Below are positions 23,363 to 46,086 of a DNA stretch of 64,000 bases, piece after piece. Position 1 is the stretch's first letter, and the number at the start of each line of letters is the position of its first letter. The translations under genes were made by a program, and so were the position numbers. Origin of the DNA: Owenia fusiformis (lineage: Eukaryota; Annelida; Polychaeta; Sabellida; Oweniidae); the NCBI GenBank assembly GCA_903813345.2, contig CAIIXF020000009.1, positions 33,793,259 to 33,857,258 on the forward strand, read 5' to 3'. Below the pieces are notes generated by a model, which was not told the DNA's origin, made no database searches, and worked only from the letters and a program-made list of their open reading frames with translations.

Positions 23363-23509
23363 TCAATGTAGCTGCCCAGCTATGGTTTTATGCTTAGTAA
23401 ATGTGTCCTCACTGGTTAGATGTATACACAGTAATGAAGCAGAGACTTTAGCATAGAGATCTGTCAGTTCTATATCATGGTGCCATTCTACATTGCCCCA
23501 TTTTCCTAT
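23363..23509 (-). CDS. ATPAF2: ATPAF2 exon 7 (last coding)
   Basis: Starts after TTTTCAG in phase 0 and encodes IGKWGNVEWHHDIELTDLYA and onward to LHLTSE-type sequence, ending KTIAGQLH and a stop (49 codons with the stop). It matches the QKWGNIEWAHDYELQELRAR end of vertebrate ATP12. Confidence 0.93.
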   Translation of the reverse strand: MGKWGNVEWHHDIELTDLYAKVSASLLCIHLTSEDTFTKHKTIAGQLH

Positions 23510-26500
23510 CTGAAAATACAAGAATAAACCCATAAAATGAATGACCTGAAACATGAAATCAATTACATGCACTAAATATAAAGGTATGGTACATAAGCTA
23601 TAAATATAATCAAAAAACATGTGTAATTCACTACAAGCAGCCTTCATAGATTACATTTACTGGAAATTCACCAACCCTTTCATTGTATAACTTCAATGGC
23701 AAAATAATTACAGTATTTCTAACTTATAGATCTGTGTAACATATTTGTGATATCCTTTTAGACATTCAAGATCAAGATATACTAAGAATTGCATTTTTGG
23801 ATTGTATAGTTAAACAAATTGATACTATTACTGTTTATTCAGTTGGCTGAGCAAATGTATATAATATAATATGTTTTATGCTGCCGTTATATTTAATTGA
23901 AGGCCCATTCTATTTTCTGATTCTCATCAGTAAGATTAATGATTTATTGCCTAAATAATGATGATTTTATTGCTTAGAGAAAAAAATGAACAAATGAATC
24001 TAGTTGAAGGCCCATGACAAAAGTAAATATATATCAGCAATGCCAAGGTAAAGCAAAGCTCATTGAAACATCTTGCCAAGCATCGGAATTGATACACTCT
24101 CAAAAGATAATGTGTCATGATTGTACATAAAAGATCAGCACAATTGCCATATTACTCTTGAAGTTATATTAAAAATGACACGTCAATGAAATCCATTTGC
24201 AATAGAACCATAATAACATTCCAAATTTATAAACTCAAAAATGGTAAATTGTCTATGGGCAGTTCTATATCACTCCAAACTTAGTTCAAACAGAAAATAA
24301 ATCTTGACTCAAAAATCAAAATTTATTTTGTAATAATTGTTTATAGTTAGCTTAAAAAGAGACATGGAAGTCATGGAAATCTGTTTTCGTTCAGCACTAA
24401 CATGAAACATTTTCAGAAAAATGCACTAAAATAAAAACTTTAAACTGACACATCCACCTCAGATTGACTATACAAGGCTCATAATTATTTGGTTAATCTA
24501 ATATCAGGTCATTTGCATGTGACCTCCTTGCAATGTACAGTGTATGGTCTACTAGTCCTAATATTGTTCCCCAAAGGCATGTTTATATGGAAATGGTTTT
24601 CTAATGACCATTTATCCAGACAAAATTATGTCAAAGTTAATTTTTATTTCTCCCAAGGTAAAAATCTTCATACTCAGTAATTTTTGTACTTGGTGTACTT
24701 GATGATACTGGAAAATCAATGTAAATTCTTTTGTATTGTAAAGGTATTGCCATCAATATGGGTCGTTCAAAAAGTTAAGCGAAAAATATATCCAACTTTA
24801 ACAATAATGAACCAATACTGTTCATAATTGATAGGTATGTGTTCCAATCTTATTTCCTTACACTGCCAAGGACATGTTTCATGTACAATATTTCTCTGAT
24901 GATAACAACGGGCTCAACAGTAAAAATGAACGTTTATGACTGCCTAAAAATGTATGCATTGTGAGGGTCTGACAACATGGGGAGTCAATGGAATATCTAA
25001 ATATTGAACTAAGTTTTCAGATTTTGAGGTGGTCAGTGCTTAGTGACCTGTTCACATATACAGATTTAAGCTCAGAAAAATATGTTATTTGAAAATAATC
25101 AATTATCCAAATAGTACTTTTCATGACCTAAAAAATGAGTTGAGGCCTTTAAATATGAATCTATCACACAGTGAAAATCGAAAATTCCTGGAATATATTA
25201 TGAATATTGCCCATACATGTACTTGTTTTCCTGCATGTCCATCTATTAATGAATGATTTAACTACCTGATAATTCAATTCTAGTCTTGAAAGATCCACTG
25301 CAGTTTCTACTGTGGTGTAGCGGTCAACTAGTGCCATGGTCAGAATTACAGATTTTAATGCTTCAACAATGGTTTGAAATCCTGGAATATCAAACACATA
25401 AGTTAATAATTATGATGTTTATTTGTGGTAAAAATTGAATTTTACAATGGGGTATTTTTAATTTATGTACTATGTAACTGCTTCTTACTTTGTTTAGTCA
25501 TGTAGAAATTAAGAGAAAACATTTGGTAAATACTGACATTAATTCCACGGAAGAACAGATGATTAAATTTTAAAGGCCCATTGCGTACCTACCTATAAGA
25601 GACCAGTCACTATATGATTGCAGATGTTGCCTGAATACTTCTACTGTCTCGGCAGGAACCAGTGGTTGGGCTATAGTTACAGTGGGCTCTAGCACTATAT
25701 TGTATCTTGAAATATGAACAAGTTTGAAAATTATAAAAAGCAATTTTGTTTTTCTGAACTATATTTTGTTAATTCAATAGAGGTTCCATTGGACATCTAC
25801 TGTATATGTTTAAATGGATTATAGACATTTGTCCATCTTCATCATCAGTACTTCAAAATATGTTCATCTTCATGAGTATTTGAAAAATTACTTTCTTATT
25901 GTTTTGTATTCTTGATAAAAAAAACCTGAACAATGAACAATCACAAAAAGATCAATTATGTTTCAATCAATGGTGGCTGGGGTATACTGAGCTTTATTAT
26001 GAAAAATCTGAAACCGACTTTACTGATAACAGAAATGAATGGTAACGGACCAATCAAAAGCTCCAAAATCTAGTAATCATGCCTAGTATAGGTGAGAATA
26101 AATACATGTATATATTATATAAAAGTTATTTTATTTCCCAGGCTTTATTTAAGTAGCAACAACATCAAAGGTCAAAGATCACCCAATCTAACTATGTAAC
26201 TTATGGCTTATATGTACCTTTCTTTAGCCCAGTCTAACAGTGGATCCCATTTGGCTTTTTGTAGTTCATGCAACTCTTGGGGTTCATCCATTCTATAACT
26301 GAAAATAGAATAATGTTGAGTGACCTTGGAATCTATCTATAAACACTACAGGACATAGAATATATTTAATGTTGTCACATTGAGCCTTTGCTTTCCTTTC
26401 CTTCGGAAAGACACTGAAAGATCAAGCAAGTTTTCCTTGCCAACTTTGTGGTATTTATATACAGTACACATATTCCTTGACATCGGAAAGTTATATGTCA

Positions 26501-29500
26501 TGTTCATCAAATAATTCATTATAGTATTTTTTCATTATAGTATTTAAGGCTGATCACAAATCAAATCATATACGTCAGTGGTATGTAATTCATGGGCCTT
26601 GATTTGCCTTGTCTCATCACTAAACTTCTGTCATCCAATGGGAAGTTCTGAATCTAGAGGTTTCTACTAAGATCATCCTTGGCCCAAAAGTAATTCATTG
26701 CATTACATTGATCTGCTATGACAGCAGTGAAGGTCCGATCTTGAAGGATGACTAAGATAGGTTTTAAATTTTTTTAAAATTGGGCCACATTTTTTTGACA
26801 AACAGGTCTAAAAAATTTTTATTGAGAGTTTGCCAAATAAAAATTTGGTTTACAATAAAACTAAATAACTCTTTACAAATCATGCATTACAAGGAATAGA
26901 ATCTAACATGTCCTTGATAGCAGACTTCAGGATGTATTTCCCTAAAACAAACCAAAAGTATTCTACAGCTTATACAGTAAAACCTATTGTATCCAAACAC
27001 ATCCCTTATCTGAACACCTCTCAAGGTGAACACTTTTATAATCTGCCATAGACTACTTCCATGTTAAAAAAACTTGAAATGTGAACACCTGCCAATCCAA
27101 ATATTTTTGACAAATCCCGATATAGAGATTGGATTGGAAAGGTTTTACTGTACCTGTATATCCAAAAATACTTTATTAAAGAGCAACACACGTTTCGCAT
27201 CATCATGTGATGGATTATCTATGAAAGCTCACCATATAGTATCTGTATTAAGGTATTCTATGAAAGCTCACCATATAGTATCTGTATTAAGGTATTCTAT
27301 GAAAGCTCACCATATAGTATCTGTATTAAGGTATTCTATGAAAGCTCACCATATAGTATCTGTATTAAGGTCTTCTATGAAAGCTCACCATATAGTATCT
27401 GTATTAAGGTATTCTATGAAAGCTCACCATATAGTATCTGTATTAAGGTATTTTATGAGAGCTCACCGTATAGTATGTGTATTAAGGTATTCTATGAAAG
27501 CTCACCATATAGTATCTGTATTAAGGTATTCTAGCATGCCACCCACTACCACTTCTCTAGATCTCTTTGTTGGATTATCTTGGGCTGTATTACACAAGGA
27601 GGTCTGCAAGTTCATTGAAAAATATAATTAATTAGAAAGATAAAATGCACATTCATTTCACAAAGACTTATGGTTCCTTCAACTAACTACTTATATTACA
27701 TGTATATGTAGATACAGATACAAGATTTAATTGATTCTTTCAATAGTAAATTCCCGCAAAAATATAACACGGGAATCATGGGTTTAATCACCTTAAACTA
27801 ACTCATAATATAAATGAAATGAAATGTAGATCTAAGTTATTCAGTAAAACAATAAACATGAAATAATATTGAACTGCTTAAACTCACCAAGTGCATAGAT
27901 GGTCTGTGAATGACTTGATCTTGTGCCTCCCATTCTGCCTGGACCGCCAGGGCTAGTGGCTCACTAGGTATTTGTAAAACAGTCCCCATTGGAGTACGTA
28001 GTTTGCGTTTATCCAGATTTATTTCAAACCCTTGGCGCCCCTCAGCTTGTGTTACAGTCACATTTTTATAAAATCGTTTGAGCTCTGAAAATGTTGAAAT
28101 CTACTTTTTAAAATTATAACACAAGAATTCTAGGTAAAACATACTGTACTGTACTGTTCTATTAACTGGAACACTTGTGCAAAAGTAATGCTCTTCAAAG
28201 TCTCGTGTATTTTTGAAAGTGATCGACAAAGGTTCCCAAAAACAGAATATATTTGTATTACTATTCATCATTCAGTGTATGTTGTATACAATATTATGTC
28301 ATGGGTCTTATTCTGAAGTCATGATATAAAATTAAAAATGATCAGATCGTTTGATATCAATCAGATTGTATGATATTTCCTGCAAGTGAACGATTCACTC
28401 CTGAGCAGTGAGCACTTATCATAAAATTAATCGAACTACAACTGACAGAGAATGTCCCTACTTCCGTTTATTTCAACCCCAGGATACACAATACAATACA
28501 CAAGTAGTTGTGAGGGTGATATGAAAAATCAACCAAACACTGGCAAGTTGCATACTGATAGAGCCCATAGGCCAAGGGTAAAGAAATAGTAAGCCGTATA
28601 TAGAAGAGACAAGTGAACAAGTCTGACTTAGACCACTTGTTAAGATGGAGATTTCAACAATATTTAGTGTATTATTTTCAAAAAGCAATGGGGAGTTGAT
28701 AGAAAATTGATAGTTTGTAGCTCTTACCTAAGATTGAAACTCAGTCAGATGATATAGAGTGAATAATGCTGTCTAAAAGAGAGAATTTCTGAAAACCTGC
28801 AATTGCTTGGCAAGTTCATTAGTAAACAAGTGATCTGATTGGTCACTGCTGACCTCCCTGACCTCTTAACCAACCAAATCAGTTTCAGCTTGCCATGCAA
28901 TATCCCAGATGCGAGTAGAAATAATCTTGATTTACATCATTAAAAACTGTTGTCATATTTGGAATCTACATGTAAAATTACATTTACAAATGTGGTTTTG
29001 AAAAGAGTTTATCAACTATGAAAAATTAATTTTCTTTGAAAATGTGACTTCGTGGTCGGGGAGATTCCCCATAGACCCCATGTTGTAAAACCACAAAAAG
29101 TGAAATATCTTTTCTTGTGTTGGGCAGATACTATTTTCTTTTACTGGACATATTTTAATTTGTATTAACTATCAGATACATATGGGTAATATGAGAAGTG
29201 AACCACTAAAACTGATGCATATTCAAGTTTAAGGGAATTTTGTAATACCCTGCCATGTTAATTCCCCCGAATCAGCCACCTGGTGGCGAAACTGGTAACT
29301 ACCTACTCGCATCTGAGTAATTGCGGATATCCATAGTTGTCGTTTTATATGCAGTATTATATGCAGTTTTTAGATAAAGATTTGAAAAAAACAATGATAT
29401 AAGTTTGAAAAACACTTTGAAGAAGATTTTGGAGGAATTTGGGAATACAATTTGATACCAGTAAGGAGAACTAGATCTAGTGCCAAGACTAAAAATTTTT

Positions 29501-30151
29501 GAAAGATTTTCAATCTTACTTGTGGACCTGTCTCTTCTATATACAGCTTACTATTACCCTTCCCCTGGCCTATGATAGAGCCCATGGTTGAAAGCCCAAA
29601 GTGCCAATGGGTAATGAATAGTATGTATCCAACAGACTGACTAGAAGTCAGTCTGTTATGATGTACTACTTTCCTGTGGAAATTGCAGTGAAATTTTTTG
29701 CACAAAATTATCAATTGGAGGAACAATTTCTTCAATAAAATAAACATTACAAAATTTCAATGAAATAGTAAGGTACAATTAAATGCAATAAAAAGTAAGA
29801 CAGCATATTGTCAAGTGGAAATAAAGCTAGTTGAAGTAACAAATGTGCAAATTAATTTTACCCAATCGGCCATTTTGAATAGCACTTCCTATGTAAACAA
29901 ATATTTGGAATAACCAAACTTTAACATAGGTGCCTTATAGTCTGAATATAATTCAGACTAAATAGGATATAGTCTAGGGTAATGAATAGTCCTAAATTTT
30001 GGACTTGCTTCAGAAACGATTTGGATATCATTGTAAAGTTCAAGCACATTGATGAACATACACTCATACCTTTGCTACTATATCTTTTCACATATTGCAC
30101 TTGTACATGCTGTATTTCACGTAAAACCATGCAAAAGGTTTTGACAAGCAT
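23363..30151 (-). CDS. ATPAF2: ATP synthase mitochondrial F1 complex assembly factor 2 (ATP12), 7 coding exons
   Basis: Mitochondrial matrix chaperone that binds the F1 alpha subunit and keeps it from aggregating until it joins beta. Coding exons in gene order are 30070-30151, 27888-28084, 27506-27603, 26218-26298, 25593-25705, 25266-25381 and 23363-23509. All introns are GT-AG, the phases join exactly, and the total is 834 bp (277 aa plus stop; human ATP12 is about 289). Residues 1-27 (MLVKTFCMVLREIQHVQVQY, then VKRYSSK) are basic and lack acidic clusters, as expected of a targeting peptide. Family landmarks are RFYKNVTVTQ (31-40), GFEINLDKRKLRTP (46-59), PSEPLALAVQAEWE with the conserved Trp79, TSLCNTAQDNPT after residue 93, NTDTICYR, LQKAKWDPLLDWAKER, LKSVILTMALVDRYTTVETA, LSRLELNYQIGKWGNVEWHH and the C-terminal LCIHLTSE. 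It is divergent from GID4, 270 bp away. Intron 3 begins with an amplified exon-intron junction, described separately. Confidence 0.95.
25266..25381 (-). CDS. ATPAF2: ATPAF2 exon 6
   Basis: Acceptor ATATTCCAG and donor CAG|GTAGTT (116 bp). Encodes FQTIVEALKSVILTMALVDR and YTTVETAVDLSRLELNYQ, the helical C-terminal core of ATP12. The first codon, Gly, is split G|GA with exon 5. Confidence 0.93.
25593..25705 (-). CDS. ATPAF2: ATPAF2 exon 5
   Basis: Acceptor ATTTCAAG and donor G|GTAGGT (113 bp). Encodes YNIVLEPTVTIAQPLVPAET, VEVFRQHLQSYSDWSLIG. The Arg codon is split AG|A with exon 4. It corresponds to the RYGVEISSSTSIMGPSIPAK region of the human protein. Confidence 0.92.
26218..26298 (-). CDS. 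ATPAF2: ATPAF2 exon 4
   Basis: 81-bp exon between acceptor CTATTTTCAG and donor AG|GTACAT. Encodes YRMDEPQELHELQKAKWDPL, LDWAKE. Its first base T completes the Cys codon TG|T begun in exon 3, which restores the NTDTICYR motif. This fixes the true exon 3 donor as the first copy in the tandem array. Confidence 0.93.
26975..27150. mobile_element. Pogo/Tigger-like MITE in ATPAF2 intron 3
   Basis: A 176-bp element with inverted ends CAGTAAAACCTATTG and its reverse, AAAGGTTTTACTG, flanked by TA at 26973-26974 and 27151-27152. CAGTAAAACC ends with TA targets are typical of pogo/Tigger-type members of Tc1/mariner. A plus-strand frame at 27074-27631 starts inside it and runs through the tandem array. 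It is not a gene. Confidence 0.65.
27218..27529 (-). repeat. ATPAF2: Eight tandem 39-bp copies of the ATPAF2 exon 3/intron 3 junction
   Basis: Eight units start at 27218, 27257, 27296, 27335, 27374, 27413, 27452 and 27491. Six are identical by eye; the fourth differs at one base and the seventh at several. In gene orientation each unit holds 24 bases of exon 3 (coding YLNTDTI and the TG of Cys) followed by the donor GTGAGC and a few intron bases ending TTTCATAGA. The unit nearest exon 3 (27491-27529) is the real boundary, with its donor at 27500-27505. The other seven lie at the start of intron 3 and keep the same GGTGAGC. Splicing at any later copy would put TGG TGA into the frame. Exon sequence just before the array ends CTAGA, matching the unit end CATAGA, so a TAGA microhomology may have seeded the first duplication. 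Confidence 0.9.
27506..27603 (-). CDS. ATPAF2: ATPAF2 exon 3
   Basis: Acceptor AACTTGCAG and donor ATATG|GTGAGC (98 bp). Encodes TSLCNTAQDNPTKRSREVVV and GGMLEYLNTDTI plus TG of a split Cys codon. TSLCNTAQDNPT matches TTLCNTSLDNPT of human ATP12. Its last 24 bases are the exonic part of the 39-bp tandem unit. Confidence 0.93.
27888..28084 (-). CDS. ATPAF2: ATPAF2 exon 2
   Basis: 197-bp exon with acceptor CATTTTCAG and donor TTG|GTGAGT. It starts with AG, completing G|AG (Glu) from exon 1, then LKRFYKNVTVTQAEGRQGFE and so on to RPSMHL. It contains the GFEINLD signature and the Trp in AVQAEWEAQ that corresponds to the Trp altered in a known human complex V deficiency. Confidence 0.93.
28566..29574. 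mobile_element. hAT-like MITE, copy A, in ATPAF2 intron 1
   Basis: Inverted ends of about 45 bp start CATAGGCCAAGGGTAAAG, and the right end is its diverged reverse, CCCTGGCCTATG. An 8-bp target duplication, ATAGAGCC, lies at 28558-28565 and 29575-29582. It is collinear with copy B (30602-31182) except for an extra segment of about 410 bp, which is a second element inserted into it. The 8-bp duplication points to the hAT superfamily. Confidence 0.8.
28906..29315. mobile_element. CAGATGCGAGTAG element nested in hAT-like copy A
   Basis: Inverted ends CAGATGCGAGTAG and CTACTCGCATCTG bound about 410 bp. A second copy lies at 37994-38399. The segment is absent from hAT-like copy B at the equivalent place, which proves insertion after the hAT-like family had formed. 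Exact outer limits are uncertain, since a few flanking bases are also shared between the two copies. Confidence 0.7.
30070..30151 (-). CDS. ATPAF2: ATPAF2 exon 1 (first coding)
   Basis: 82 bp encoding 27 residues of presumed mitochondrial targeting peptide plus the first base of a Glu codon. The donor AAAG|GTATGA joins in phase to exon 2. The ATG at 30151 directly follows an ETS-type site (CCGGAAGT), typical of housekeeping starts. No downstream Met gives a better targeting sequence, so this start is preferred. Confidence 0.85.
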
Positions 30152-30568: not shown

Positions 30569-33500
30569 GTGGGTTTTCCCGTTCACTTTCCTTTTGTAGA
30601 CCATAGGCTAAGGGTTAAGTAATAGTAAGCTGTATATATAAGAGACAGGTGAACAACTCTGACTTAGACCACTTGTTAAGATGGAGATTTCAACAATATT
30701 TAGTGTATTATTTTCAAAAAGCCATGGGGAGTTGATATAAAATTGATAGTTTGTAGCTCTTACCTAAGATTGAAACTCAGTCAGATGATATAGAGTGAAT
30801 AATGCTGTCTAAAAGAGAGAATTTCTGAAAACCTACAATTGCCTGGCAAGTTCATTAGTAAACAAGTGATCTGATTGGTCACTGCTGACCTCCCTGACCT
30901 CCACCAGTGACAATCAGTTTCAGCTTGCCAGGCAATTGTAGGTTTCCATAGTTGTTGTTTTATATGCAGTATAATATGCAGTTTTTAGATAAAGATTTGA
31001 AAAAAGAATGATATAAGTTTGAAAAACACTTTGAAGAAGATTTTGGAGAAATTTTGGAATAAAATTTGATACCAGTAAGGAGAACTAGTGCCAAGACTAA
31101 AAAAATTTGAATAATTTTCAATCTTACTTGTGGACCTGTCTCTTATATATACAGCTTACTATTACTTAACCCTTAGCCTATGTTGTAGACTAATGTCAAC
31201 TGTCACGTGTCAAGCTAAGCTTGATTATTACTACATTTAGGTCAGTAATTAATTTAATTTAGATGATACAAAGTCTTTAGGATCTTCTTTATCAAAGTCT
31301 TTTTCATCTCAAATTCCATAAAATTGATTGAGCCGAAGTGATTGCACAAAATCTTGCCTATTTTCATAATTGTAGATTCCACGGACAATTCCCAAAGGTG
31401 CTCCCTGGGTATTAAGAGTGTGCCAACGTTTTGCAAGCACATTATCTGAAAAGTCAACCCCACATTTATGAACATGCTATCTATTGCAAGACTTACGCCT
31501 ACCACAACCGTCGCCATGTTAATCAGTGTTTTTAAGTAGCGCAAGGATCCTGCCATGACCGTGGTAGTGTTATCTTGTAAGCCTGGTATAACCGTGACAG
31601 GCTGGTATAACCGCGACAATGCTGTATTATATTGCAAGGCTTGTCATGACCCTGGAAGTGTTATCGTGGAAGCCTGGCGCGACCGTAGCCTTTATTGTGG
31701 TTTATAAGAGAATGTAAATATTAATGTATAGTAGTAATTTTGATTTTGACATGATTAAGGTAGTTAAACACCATGATCATAGTATTAAACTGTTTAATTG
31801 TAATGACGATCACTTAAAATTGTTAAGGATATTCCTGGCATTAATGTCATACATATTTACTAGTCCTTGCAATACATTATATACCCTTTGCATTCGTTTG
31901 ACTTCACTTCTTAAAAGAGAGCTTCGTCTTCAACTAGAAGAAGATAGTAGTTTAACTAGACTCTGCACGCAGGGTATACTTTATAACGGTCATAGTAGGA
32001 CTAAGCCTAAATTTCTACATTACCACCCTCATATCCGAACTTGGAATACTATATCACATTGCCACGGTGGTCATACCAAGCCTTGCAATACCATATTACA
32101 TTGTCACGGCCATGCCAGGCCTTGCAGTACTATATTACATTGCCACGGTCATGCCAGGCTTTGCAGAACTATATATCATTGTCCCGGGCATGCCAGGCTT
32201 TGCAGTACTATATTACATTGTCACGGTCATGGCAGGCATTGCAATATAATACAGCATTGTCGCGGTTATACCAGGCTTTCACGATAACATTACCACGGTC
32301 ATGGCAGGATCCTTGCGCTACTTAAAAACACCGGAATAACATGGTGACGGTTACGCCAGGCGTTAGTCTTGCAACAGATAGGGTCTCCATTTATGGGGGA
32401 ATTTGAGACTTGATTTCTAGCTGTTTTGTCTGACACTCGTTCGATGTTTGATGAGATTTGCTACGACTTATCAATGATAATATCATTGCTGTTATCTATT
32501 TTTTCGCTATAAATATAACTAGAATCACATTTGGAAAATATACAGGAAGTCTCGTAATACTTCAGCCATTTATTTTTCTAGCATGTTGACATGGAGAATT
32601 CCTATCTCTGTGGGTACTTAAAGATAAAAGGTCTAACTGAAGAGTATCCCACCCTCACAACATTCTTTGATGGAGAAATCATTAGTGATCGATACAAGTT
32701 CCTCACTCGTAAATGGGACGCAGATGAAGATGTTGACAGGAAACATTGGGTACGTTGTCTTTGCCTAATTTTTTTTCGGTCATACATATTCTTTGTACAG
32801 TAGTATTTATTATCAAAAATTAAATGTGACAGTTCTACACAATTTAGATTGACTAAGTTCAGAAAAAATGTTGGGCCTTTAAAAAAATTCAAAATTTGAG
32901 GCCCATTTTTTATAATTTGGCATAAAAAGGCCCAAAAAATATCAAATATAATGCCCAAAAAGGCCCACTGATCGAGGCCCTACAAAATTTTTGGGCCCAA
33001 ATTTTTTTTGGTCCACCCAAAAAGATTTTCTGTTCCCCCTGGATCCAGCAGTGCAACATGTAGACTGTTTTCCGTTTAATTTTCAATTTAAAAGTATTAA
33101 GATCTTAATATACATGCATGTTAAAGGTTATGTTGTTATCTTTCTTATTATGAAAAATGTAGCATATCTTTTGTAGCTTATTGAGGTGTTCAGCTTTAAA
33201 GGAACTGCAGTGATTATTAGAACTACTTGCACAAATATGAGAAATAAAAAAGAGAATACTCACCACTTCTATATGTAGCATATATGAGGGTTATGTTATG
33301 GGAGGTTTTGAATATACGGTATATATAATATATCCTGAGGGAAATATAGATATCTTACTGAGGGCCTGAACATTATCATTGTTGAAAATATAGAGATTGT
33401 ATTCTGGGAGCCAATCCTCCTTGTATCTGATCAAAACAGGTAAAAATAGGATTAATCCCCCTATTAAGGAAAAATGAAGAGATCACTGGACATTGTATCA

Positions 33501-40000: not shown

Positions 40001-43000
40001 TAAGATTTCTCAATTTCTTGTCTAAATCTCTGCACAGACAACGGAATGACCCTTTTTCTTATACAAATTACAGATGTCATAAGAGGTACAATATCCCTTG
40101 ATGCAACACTAAGCCAGCTCCAATTCCTTGGGAAATCAAAAATGTACAGGAGAGAAGGGGGAAAATATGTATGAAAGTGTGCATCCACATGCCTATCTGT
40201 CTTTCCTTTTACTATATGATTTATCAGTCAGGATGGTTTCCCAGAAACAATGCAGAAGTGTTCAGATATTTATTCCATCAGCAGTCAAACTTATATTTAT
40301 GGTCACAGGGAGTTTCCTTTCAATTTTAAAATGAGTTGTAAACCATAGATCTATTTTTTTGAATGTTAGGTTTATATTGTATTCTATTCAAATTCTATCA
40401 CTGTTAAACTGTATATCTGCTTTAAATGGGCTTGTTGGCCTTTTGCAGATTATTGATGGAGATGTAGATGTAGGTTATAATCATAACAGATATGACATGA
40501 TATCTTTGCTTAGAGAGTAGGATTTAATGTTATGCAATGTTCTTTCTACATTGAAATCACTGAGGCACAACACGTCAATTTTTTCCATAACATTAAAACA
40601 CTCCTCAATTTAATTCAGTTCGATGTGTATCCTAAAGTGTTGCAATAAAAAAGGGAAATCTTAGAATTTCGCACAAAAAAATACAAAAACCTAAAATGTT
40701 GCACAAGAATTACAAAATCTTAAAGGCCCCATATATATTTTGAACCACTTGAGCTTATATTCTAGTCCCCTCCCTTGCTCCAGAAAAATAATAAAATCCT
40801 CTACACAGAATAATCACAGAGAGCACAGTGTTATGCTCTACAGTACATGTAGATGGAATTATCCGGTTGGGATATCAAGATGAAGTTGGTGCAACCGAAA
40901 ACTTAAGAATCTGCAATCATGCGTTTTCAGTCATTTTCTCTTGTTTATCTCTCAGTATGAAAATAACTAGGTATATAACAAACTTGTTTCACTTCAAACG
41001 TACATGATCATAAAGCTTAGTGACATATCTAATGAATGATTTTTAAACAAATCTTTACCAAGATGATAACTGGAACTATCTGAAGTGTACTTTAAACAAT
41101 TCTGAATGCAAGTATTATGTATTGCTTGCTAAGACAGAAGTTTTCCAAGTGCCCCATATTCAAAACCCAGCATCTGGAATTCAGAAACTCAATAGACGGA
41201 TAGGTGGTCAGATTGCAGTTACAGATTAGTAAAAACAATTACTCCAAATAGATTGTCTACATCATTTAAGAAATACAATTGAATAAGCTTTTATATGATG
41301 TATAACATATGGGGGTATGTTATCTTGGCTTGGCTATTGAGAGGGGGGCAATTATTTTAAAAAAAACTGTTTGTATATAGTGTTCACGTATAGTAAAATC
41401 CAAATTTTAATTGCATGATTTTGTTTAGTGGCTGTATCAGTGTATCATTGATATCGTTATAACCTAGAAAATGTTATCTTGTATGGTCAACATTGCCCCA
41501 TCAACAGTATAAGTACATGCGTTACACTTTATCTCAGTACAAATAATAACAGTTAGATTAGACATTGTTTGATGTTGTTAGCTTGTTCTAAAATGTTCTT
41601 ATTTCTACGTCTATTCTTATTACTTATTAGTATGTTAGTTCGATTTAAAGATATAAGTATAATTCATATCTAATTTCTATATACAGTAGATTCATATCTA
41701 GTTGTTATTGTGCTTAAGTGTCACACTAGACTTTCAAGGGCATTTTTAACATCAGAACAAGTTCAAAATTTTTTTACGCTGTACATTTGTTCTTCATCTT
41801 TGTGAATTTGATACGTTGTCTGGCGTTGGTATGAATTGGTTGCCATGGCATTCAAGCTTAGCTCAAATGCAGACTAATTTTTTTGTAGAAGTGAACATGA
41901 TCTGCTTAACCACCTATACCATTTAAAATGCAGTGTAATTTCAACCATAGATGTTGTAATATATCTACAGTATTTATCTTTAATTTATAATTGAGGAAAA
42001 GGTAAGCATTGTTTGAATATGTTCTGTAGTATGTCCAAGTATTTTTTTGTTGATTTATTGATATTTATATAATGCGAGAACTTCAAAGAAATCAATTTTT
42101 AGAATTGTATATATATTTTTATAGCAACATATTTTACCCTGGATCTCTAGACGCAAGCCACACTCCCCTCTGAGAATCACAAATGATCTCCTATTTTGAT
42201 GCATAAAAGATCAAAACTGTTTCATATATGACCTTCTTGGTCTTAACTGAGATTGAACATGAAATGAATGTTAGCTTTTTATATGTAGAACATAGGGTCA
42301 TAATAATCTGACTCTGTTGTCTGATTTGAGGTATACCAGATCAAAGAACTAGCTCTGAATAAAAGAGTAAAGATGAAGTGAAATCAGTCTTGAGTTGAGA
42401 ATGATACTCATATTTGTAATGCTATTCCACTTATAAAATGAAAATGAATAGGTTATGTACTTCCTTAAATATTGGCAAGTATTGTGTTGGTTGTGTCACT
42501 TTGAACTCTGAAATAGACTAGGTAATGCCTTTGAAAGTCGAGTTGTCATAAGCTTTATTATGTTTATCGATGCTTAATCAATGATAAATTCTGAAAGTAT
42601 ATTCTTTGAGTCTTACTTTATATGTGTTAGTGTTTTTTAACCAGTATATTCCAGTTAAGTCTCCAGAATGTAATTTCCTTTTGGCTTGATACTGATAGAG
42701 ATCTGGCTAGAGAATTTTATGAACATGCTTAATTGTGGTTAGCACTTAACATGGTCCACATCTTTCAAGACTATTCTTTGCATTACTGTGTTTTCAAGAA
42801 AATGGTGAATCAGCTTCTTGTGGAAAATATGATGAAGTGCTAATATAAGGTCTATACTTCTGTACAGATAGGACCGTTCCCTGTGTAGTTGATTCAGTCA
42901 TTAATACATCCTATAGGACAGCATTTAGTCTGTAATACATCCTATAGGACAGCATTCAGTCTGTAATACATCCTATAGGACAGCATTTAGTCTGTAATAC

Positions 43001-43032
43001 ATCCTATAGGACAGCATTTAGTCTGTAATTAG

Positions 43033-43153: not shown

Positions 43154-43405
43154 TTATAACATACCTATGATGATGTAGACTTGTCAGAGAGTACCGTTTT
43201 CTTATAGAATTGACAAACAAATGGTTTGAAAATGATTGAAATGAGTTTAGAAAAATTGCTCGCGCAGTTTTATCTTCGATTGATTGGTTATGACGTCAGC
43301 GCCTTGACCAATCAGAAAGTTAGTGGGCGCGGGCTTTTCAAAACTTATATTGGCCCGCTGTCTTGTGTACACTTTGCACTATACATCATCATAGGTATGT
43401 TATAA
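43154..43405. mobile_element. MITE with perfect 24-bp inverted ends carrying CCAAT and CRE sites
   Basis: Ends TTATAACATACCTATGATGA (24 bp in all) and its exact reverse complement up to about 43404. Inside, a perfect CRE, TGACGTCA, lies at 43291-43298 between GATTGG (an inverted CCAAT) and GACCAATCAG. A GC-rich GGGCGCGGGC follows. The layout resembles a small promoter, but activity is unknown. Confidence 0.75.
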
Positions 43406-46086
43406 TACATCCTATAAGACAGCATTTAGTCTGTAATACATCCTATAAGACAGCATTTAGTCTGTAATACATCCTATAGGACACCATTTAGTCTGTAATA
43501 CATCCTATAGGACAGCATTTAGTCTGTAATACATCCTATAGGACAGCATTTTGGTGAGGTTATGGCACAATTGAATAGGCACATTATCAATTAATTGTGA
43601 CTAGACATTAGCTATAACAACAAGGTCTCATACCAGCTCCCCTTGTATTTCCCTTGTTTGATTGTTTTGTTGAGGTATATCCAATAGGGCTCCGTTGGTA
43701 AACTGAAACCATGGTACACCGCAGCACGGTTGGTATGTTCAGTCCTGAAACTGTATGCTTCAGTTTTTAATTGTACATTAATCCAGAAAAAGTTGCCATT
43801 GGCAAAAAATATTGTTGTTTGCTTGCTAAAGTGAAGTGAAGAATTAATAGCGTCAAACGGAGAGAAGAACTTGGCATTAGAGACACTTCTAAATCGTAAA
43901 AAGCTCAATTTTGGGGCTATATTGGCTTTCCATTCTAATGATGGGTGCTGTCGGGATTGTGGAGAAGAGAAATTTTACAAGCTGAAGTGTCAGTTTGAGT
44001 TATCAAAGTGCGAGTTATTAAAGTGCGAAAAGAATTGAAACTGAACCGAAAAGATTAAAACTGTGAACTGAACTGAGAAATTATGAAACCATTGGAGCCC
44101 TAGTATCCAACCAGTAATTATTTCTTCCTCTAGCAAGGTGTGTTGCTTCTTGATAGCATGTTCCAGGCTGTCAGGTTTAGGTAGGCAGAGTAGAAGGTAA
44201 TTCTGCCTCATATCCTGGCAATCCAAGATGGTGTCAGTGTAGCCTATATGTGAAATGCCAACCTTTATGATTTTTCTATTCCATAATGTCCTTGTTGATG
44301 ATATATCATTTCTACTTATCTATTTTGTTTAATCTATTTTGAAAGTTACATTCAAATTCAAATGAACTAGAGATGTTTATATAATTGTCAAATTCTACAA
44401 AAAAACACAGTTAGGTGAATTATTATACAAGGGTTGGAACCTTCTAAACAGATGATGCGGTCCTGGTGTTGATAAACTTGCACTTTGCCTGTTTCATTTC
44501 TATCAGCTTTTGCAGCACGTTGAAGTTTCTTTCTTAATCTGGTCTAATGATTGGTTACATTTGATCACATGATACTAGTTGTATGGGATGTTGAGAAAGG
44601 CCCTCTTTAGCTTGGTGTTTCATTCATGCAGTTTTGACTATTTTGAAAAATACAGACTAGAGCGCGAGTTCTTAGATTTTTGATGACTGTAAATTAAATT
44701 AAACATTCAAATATATCTGAATTCTCCCAGTATCTTTTCTCCCCATCTGATAAAAGACTACTCAGTAGTTCAGGAAAGACTTTACCTGACTTAAATGAAA
44801 ATCTGTATGTCTGTTCATGAATTTGAGATTTGGGCACAAACAAGAGATAAACAAGTATAATCATATTGCCTCGTGAACTTCATAGATCAAAGAACATTTG
44901 GTGGGTTTTATTTTACAAACATGTTTGTGCACTGTATTGTGCTGCCCTCTATTTGTAATGGTTGATAAATATATTCAAAAATCATGTATTAGATGAACCA
45001 ATGCAACAGTGAATTCTTCTGAGAGAGTTTTTAACATGCTGATCTCTGGCAGATTAAAAAATTAACTGGAAAACTGTTCATATCAAAAGGTGTTCAGACG
45101 AGAGAGGTATTCTGATATACATGTTCCGAAATACATTATATTCCGTTAACTTTTCCTTCTGATTTTTGACATCTCCAAACTCTATTGACCAACATTGTTA
45201 ATAACCAAAATCACTGTGTACATGCAATTTCAATGTTTAGTCCTAGTACTCTATTACACATGTAGTTTATAAATAGACCTTATAGTAGAAAACATCTGTG
45301 AGACACCTATTACAATAATACTTGTTATATTAATTTTAATTATTGTAAAATATGTTGCAATTGAGTACCTACATAGTATATTCAGGTATATAATTTAAGT
45401 TATTTTGAAAATGATAGTAGAACATATCTTCTGTAAGTAGCATTAGGACTGGTCATTTTATGTTAATAGTCATCAAAATCATACTTGAAATAAATCATCA
45501 GATAAGAAAACAAGAGCATAGACTTGATTTTAAATCTAACAAAGAATATGTTAGATTAGGCACTCTTGTAGAGATAAATGTTTGGTGTTTTTCTTTTAAA
45601 TACTAATAGGTCAATGGAAAGTTGTATCAGTCAGTAGCCTGGTCATATTTTTAGAAAATGATTTAACAAATTATTTTTGCCCCTTTCCTCTCTTTGTTAA
45701 AACAACATCTTGACATAACCCTAAAAATTACAAAGGAAAGAAATTGATAGTTTGAGTGGCCTTTATATTAGTGCTATGTACATCTGTATTTTACTTCTCA
45801 CCTATGAAATGCCAATGTGTGAATATATTGCATATTTGCGAGCACATTTAATTTTAATTGCAATTTTAATAGAGTTAGTAGGGAGTTGTGAAGACCGCAC
45901 TTTGAGATACTTTAAACATATAAATCTCTCTCAGTTTGAAACATTATGAAACTGGAGATTTTATAGATAATTCTTAGGATTAAATAGGATTTGAATTAAT
46001 TATGAGATATAAAATAAGAACGAAAATAAAGCTGAACTAAATGGCTTTATCTGGAAAATTATCTAAAATGCATTTTGTTTTACTAG

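Follow-up and report, generated by a model that had tools for sequence, protein, structure and literature searches.

Minisatellite-like repeats lying over an exon-intron boundary have been described in amphioxus, where they are called 'mirages'. According to the available excerpts of the two reports (PMC3087553, PMC3902484), they occur in Adh3, in the globin genes BflGb6 and BflGb9, in troponin C and in PGBD5, the latter being the mirage-like case of PMC3902484, where troponin C is cited. As excerpted, amphioxus mirages sit at donors or acceptors, have units of 10 to about 160 bp, many of them with splice signals, and leave the authentic junction at the exon body; splicing is reported to be undisturbed in both papers and copy number to vary in PMC3087553. 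Two further systems are close. Intron gain or sliding by tandem duplication, set out in the excerpts on Drosophila near intron pairs (PMC2891723) and on human internal tandem repeats at exon-intron boundaries (PMC2812944), likewise duplicates splice-signal sequence in or beside a coding exon, and GYNGYN tandem donors (PMC1779574, in excerpt) likewise place several donors near one exon end.

The array described here, at the end of exon 3 of an annelid ATPAF2 gene, shares with the amphioxus mirages the repeats over a boundary and the authentic junction at the exon body; it has an annelid host, a 39-bp unit and eight copies, and the likeness is one of sequence features. All eight copies combine exon with intron sequence from a single boundary (28 + 11 bases), the splice signal GTGAGC is present in 8/8, and arrays were found in the same genome at donors (ATPAF2 and a MEK1-like gene) as well as at an acceptor (a PKN-like kinase gene). 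By these features the ATPAF2 array is probably a member of the mirage class, that is, a known class in a new phylum; no annelid report of mirage-type arrays was found among the open-licence papers listed, which is weak evidence of absence. The cases excerpted from PMC2891723 and PMC2812944 create or move an intron, whereas the homology-supported intron position in ATPAF2 is that of the first unit and no new intron is shown. GYNGYN donors, as the excerpt presents them, overlap, being only a few bases apart, and for the most part alter the protein subtly, while in ATPAF2 the spacing is 39 bp and every donor except the first leads to a stop.

The window, that is, the whole stretch of DNA analysed, is 64 kb long; no RNA family or tRNA was found in it. 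The genome encodes the erythrocruorin linker domain, which is typical of annelid haemoglobin (three matches above the family cut-off, the best at 5e-7), and a search for haemerythrin found none. To describe the host gene, exons 2-7 were set by hand on AG/GT sites, with the first exon outside the model (Table 1). The joined exons form an open frame of 249 residues followed by a stop and matched Pfam ATP12 (1.8e-42) and three ATP12-family structure sequences (8.3e-26 to 1.2e-25). Judged by this homology the host gene is ATPAF2/ATP12, the identification made in an earlier note on this DNA. That note had also placed the true junction in the first unit from the homology of exon 4, and rightly so: the ATP12 alignment includes the exon 3/4 join, NTDTI-C-YR reads across it, exon 4 follows the acceptor TTTTCAG with TTATAGAATGG, and the coordinates that had been given for the true donor were correct. 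ATPAF2 was found once in the assembly (six protein matches, all exons of one gene), and the protein search returned no second copy without the array for an ancestral comparison.

Table 1. Features of the ATPAF2 locus (positions in the window) and of two further junction arrays (positions in their own regions)
Feature	Position	Strand	Details
ATPAF2 exon 2	27888..28084	minus	
ATPAF2 exon 3	27506..27603	minus	98 nt, phase 2 end (TG|T = Cys)
ATPAF2 intron 3	26299..27505	minus	1207 nt, starts inside the array
ATPAF2 exon 4	26218..26298	minus	
ATPAF2 exon 5	25593..25705	minus	
ATPAF2 exon 6	25266..25381	minus	
ATPAF2 exon 7	23363..23509	minus	with stop codon
Eight 39-bp units	27533 -> 27222	minus	TRF and unit-by-unit reading
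True exon 3 donor, unit 1	27500..27505	minus	GTGAGC; only donor of the eight with the 249-aa open product
Competitor donor 2	27461..27466	minus	GTGAGC, ACG before GT; unit with three substitutions
Competitor donor 3	27422..27427	minus	
Competitor donor 4	27383..27388	minus	
Competitor donor 5	27344..27349	minus	
Competitor donor 6	27305..27310	minus	
Competitor donor 7	27266..27271	minus	
Competitor donor 8	27227..27232	minus	
TAGA after last unit	27218..27221	minus	putative breakpoint microhomology
PKN-like kinase gene, acceptor array	L013:5451-5748		three 98-bp units
MEK1-like gene, donor array	L026:4300-5020		eight copies, 54-bp unit

The ATPAF2 array is real. TRF reported a tandem array at 27218-27533 with a period of 39, 8.1 copies, 96% matches and a score of 597, far above chance, and reading it unit by unit bore out the eight 39-bp units of the earlier note. 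Each unit consists of TAGAATACCTTAATACAGATACTATATG, the 28 terminal bases of exon 3 (the note had counted 24 coding bases), followed by GTGAGCTTTCA, the 11 initial bases of intron 3; the exon-side end of the array is at 27533 rather than 27529. Units 1, 4, 6, 7 and 8 are identical, and units 2, 3 and 5 carry three, one and one substitutions, so that the copies are 92-100% identical to unit 1. Since the units are nearly homogeneous, the array looks young; with five substitutions across seven copies there are too few to judge selection on the units. The seven competitor donors claimed to follow the true one are all there, GTGAGC being kept in every one. The crude acceptor that had been ascribed to each unit holds for seven, which start with TAG; unit 3 starts with TAA and has no acceptor-like AG there. 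On the plus strand the array is open in two frames by the ORF translations, which is possible because a unit equals 13 codons.

Further arrays were seen elsewhere in the window: two that share a 31-bp unit and are separated by about 370 bp (42902-43029 and 43403-43551), and a 39-bp array at 31540-31660 with a related stretch nearby on the opposite strand, as read from translations (32040-32276). Peptide strings common to 28470-29550 and 30600-31155 suggest a dispersed repeat in direct orientation.

To see what each donor would yield, we spliced the gene conceptually. With any of donors 2-8 (7/7), exon 3 becomes 137-371 nt long and the frame meets a stop after ...NTDTIW; donor 1 alone of the eight gives the full-length product, as the earlier note had held. 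Retention of intron 3 brings a stop at the same codon, and a 25-nt microexon taken from units 2-8 (7/7 tried) brings one a codon earlier; these microexon trials included unit 3, where the AG is missing, and would imply introns of which the first two are very short, 14 and 53 nt. U1 duplex energies, computed for four units, were -8.1 kcal/mol for donors 1, 3 and 5 and -8.3 kcal/mol for donor 2; units 4, 6, 7 and 8 equal unit 1 in sequence, for which the energy was computed. With U1 pairing equal, donor 1 is therefore not favoured by site strength. The four other ATPAF2 donors ranged from -5.7 to -11.9 kcal/mol.

Published work on competing donors bears on which of them would be chosen. In the excerpt of PMC9225289, minigenes that had 365-nt introns and a pair of identical strong donors used the upstream donor exclusively, and among human events whose donors are nearly equal in strength exon definition works in favour of the upstream one; in the C. 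elegans unc-73 donor doublet, duplicated 18 bases apart, mostly the upstream copy is used, according to the excerpt of PMC8865678. The excerpt of PMC9225289 also recounts, from Reed and Maniatis, the older intron-proximity rule, which favours the downstream donor, and states that about 60% of human alternative-donor events prefer the downstream site, a figure uncorrected for strength; before that correction the downstream majority is seen in all four intron-length classes, the exon-defined ones included. The intron upstream of ATPAF2 exon 3 is 284 nt long, shorter than the introns of those minigenes. Exon 3 (98 nt, between introns of 284 and 1207 nt) fits the exon-defined case better, however, because the donor borders the long intron, and by analogy exon definition should favour ATPAF2 donor 1.

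To place the array in its genomic context, kinase exons of this genome were taken with their surroundings as 20 regions of 9.9 kb each (198 kb; 262 kb with the window) and scanned for arrays with a period of at least 10, at least three copies and a score of at least 100. Such arrays cover 4.6% of the whole 262 kb, 5.5% of the 20 sampled regions and 1.7% of the window; at a coverage of 4.6-5.5%, some junctions should therefore fall in arrays without any function. Junction arrays were found in two of the 20 regions. The unit of the PKN-like array holds the acceptor TTTCTAG and about the first 58 exon bases; its last copy alone continues into the exon, the first two reading into stops, and the spliced fragment matched PKN2 through the join (2.5e-92). 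The MEK1-like array is split by an insert, present twice and palindromic to judge by eye, and the spliced fragment of this gene matched MEK1 through the join (7.6e-50). GTAAGT is found in the true MEK1-like donor and in one of the seven competitors; two others have GTTAGG and four have no GT there. Mismatches in the competitor copies affect 10 of 42 donor sites against 33 of 224 in the rest of the unit (13 sites used for finding the copies excluded), which is not clearly more, and we make no claim of selection against these donors.

As for frequency, repeated 16-mers were found in, or at most 40 nt from, one of 24 kinase exon matches (MEK1-like) and one of six ATPAF2 exons (exon 3). Among 57 pre-listed exon matches (26 kinase, 31 myosin), one, again MEK1-like, overlaps an array of at least three copies; two more touch repeats of two copies each (13 and 17 bp) and were left out of the count, and the PKN-like exon, outside the 57, came from the scan of the 198 kb. 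At 5.5% coverage, chance would place 2.6 of 48 exon edges (24 exons, those listed first) in arrays and one was seen, a sample too small to decide between depletion and enrichment. Three junction arrays in about 262 kb, ATPAF2 included, suggest that the mirage phenomenon occurs in a protostome too and may be common. At a myosin exon match in L032, an array that starts 22 bp past the match and slightly resembles the exon end was not counted.

The edges of the arrays point to how they may have arisen. The TAGA that follows the last ATPAF2 unit also begins seven of the eight units, all but unit 3 (in unit 1 it lies at 27530-27533), and ATTC has the same role in the PKN-like array; at least four matching bases are expected by chance in about 2% of random duplication events. 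This TAGA/ATTC pattern fits a tandem duplication guided by microhomology and followed by expansion. A dispersed element or introner was rejected as a source: array plus exon 3 matched one place in the 498-Mb assembly, in a search that skips simple repeats and very common words. The array is not the entire intron: another 923 nt of intron 3 separate it from exon 4. We also noticed, post hoc, that exon 3 (27580-27571) shares ten bases, AGATAATCCA, with the stretch immediately following the array (27220-27211); a match of at least 10 bases arose in 1 of 5000 shuffles and in 2 of 976 real 40-nt windows. The match is unlikely by chance and is not accounted for by a single duplication.

Taking into consideration the microhomology, the near-identical units, the open gene model and the two further junction arrays, we hypothesize, with a probability of roughly 0.8, that we are dealing with a young mirage-type minisatellite, seeded by microhomology and tolerated through exon-defined use of the exon-side donor. 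A tandem duplication with 4-bp microhomology (TAGA) would have copied a segment across the exon 3/intron 3 boundary, and slippage or unequal exchange would have expanded it to eight copies. One intact junction would stay joined to the exon body, so that the gene works if the spliceosome takes the exon-side donor, to which exon definition should steer it; occasional use of donors 2-8 would give an mRNA that meets a stop at once and should therefore be degraded. The extra donors are thus most likely tolerated, and presumably neutral, rather than used as a switch. Counting against this reading are the AGATAATCCA match, competitor donors that are not weaker than donor 1, a donor 2 predicted to be as accessible, an upstream intron shorter than those of the minigenes, and, from the excerpted literature, the intron-proximity rule and the downstream preference of about 60%.

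The choice of donor could instead lie in the RNA itself, if the array folded back on itself, hid donors 3-8 and left the exon-side donors to be picked by structure. In local folding the probability that the donor 6-mer is unpaired was 0.0002-0.0012 for donors 3-8 and 0.0083 for donor 1, and a ratio that low was seen in 3.7% of 300 shuffled-unit arrays. The same model leaves donor 2 as exposed as donor 1 (0.0121), through the substitutions of its own unit; the absolute accessibility of donors 3-8 was equally low in 6.7% of the shuffles, and proteins are absent from this single folding model. The predictions thus make a weak case for structure-based donor choice, which we regard as unlikely.

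The earlier note had suggested that the array could tune ATPAF2 output through nonsense-mediated decay (NMD); on such a reading donors 2-8 would divert part of the transcripts to NMD and copy number would set the level. Every one of the seven competitors keeps GTGAGC and brings a stop directly behind ...NTDTIW, the products tried with a microexon or a retained intron end at that codon or the one before it, and U1 pairing is equal in the computed units, all of which speaks for such tuning. Competitor sites nevertheless arise in any junction duplication, and therefore their presence is not evidence of use; the array looks young, with five substitutions in seven copies, and thus bears no sign of long maintenance; similar arrays sit on unrelated genes (PKN-like, MEK1-like), and the amphioxus analogues are reported, in the excerpts of PMC3087553 and PMC3902484, not to disturb splicing. 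We found no positive support for the proposal: regulation of ATPAF2 through NMD is possible but unsupported, and we hold it to be quite improbable. The same low odds apply to a wider version, in which junction arrays are very many in the genome and their copy number sets the productive transcript fraction, that of ATPAF2 included, with expression varying between individuals. By analogy with amphioxus, polymorphism in the copy number of the array is itself plausible. Tandem arrays are prone to assembly errors, and on that general ground the copy number reported here might be wrong; units 2, 3 and 5 carry private substitutions, however, the contig (C9) is chromosome-sized (38.9 Mb), the 312-bp array is much shorter than long reads, and an error might add or remove copies but could hardly give rise to the array itself, so that we consider this highly unlikely.

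With the tolerated minisatellite as the preferred reading, eight GTGAGC donors 39 bp apart, the first alone productive, make a natural test of exon-side donor choice. Such arrays are also relevant to gene annotation, since repeated donors can lead automated models astray, and to the gain of introns through duplication; should splicing be unaffected, the finding would chiefly concern the robustness of splice-site choice.

Outside the window, at G000:C9:37986009-37994334, a row of myosin-head matches all fall on one profile segment (about 25-83), the pattern that tandem alternative exons of a muscle myosin gene would give. At L028:1-1101, a kinase exon, presumably GSK3-like, is present in two tandem diverged copies, as read from translations.
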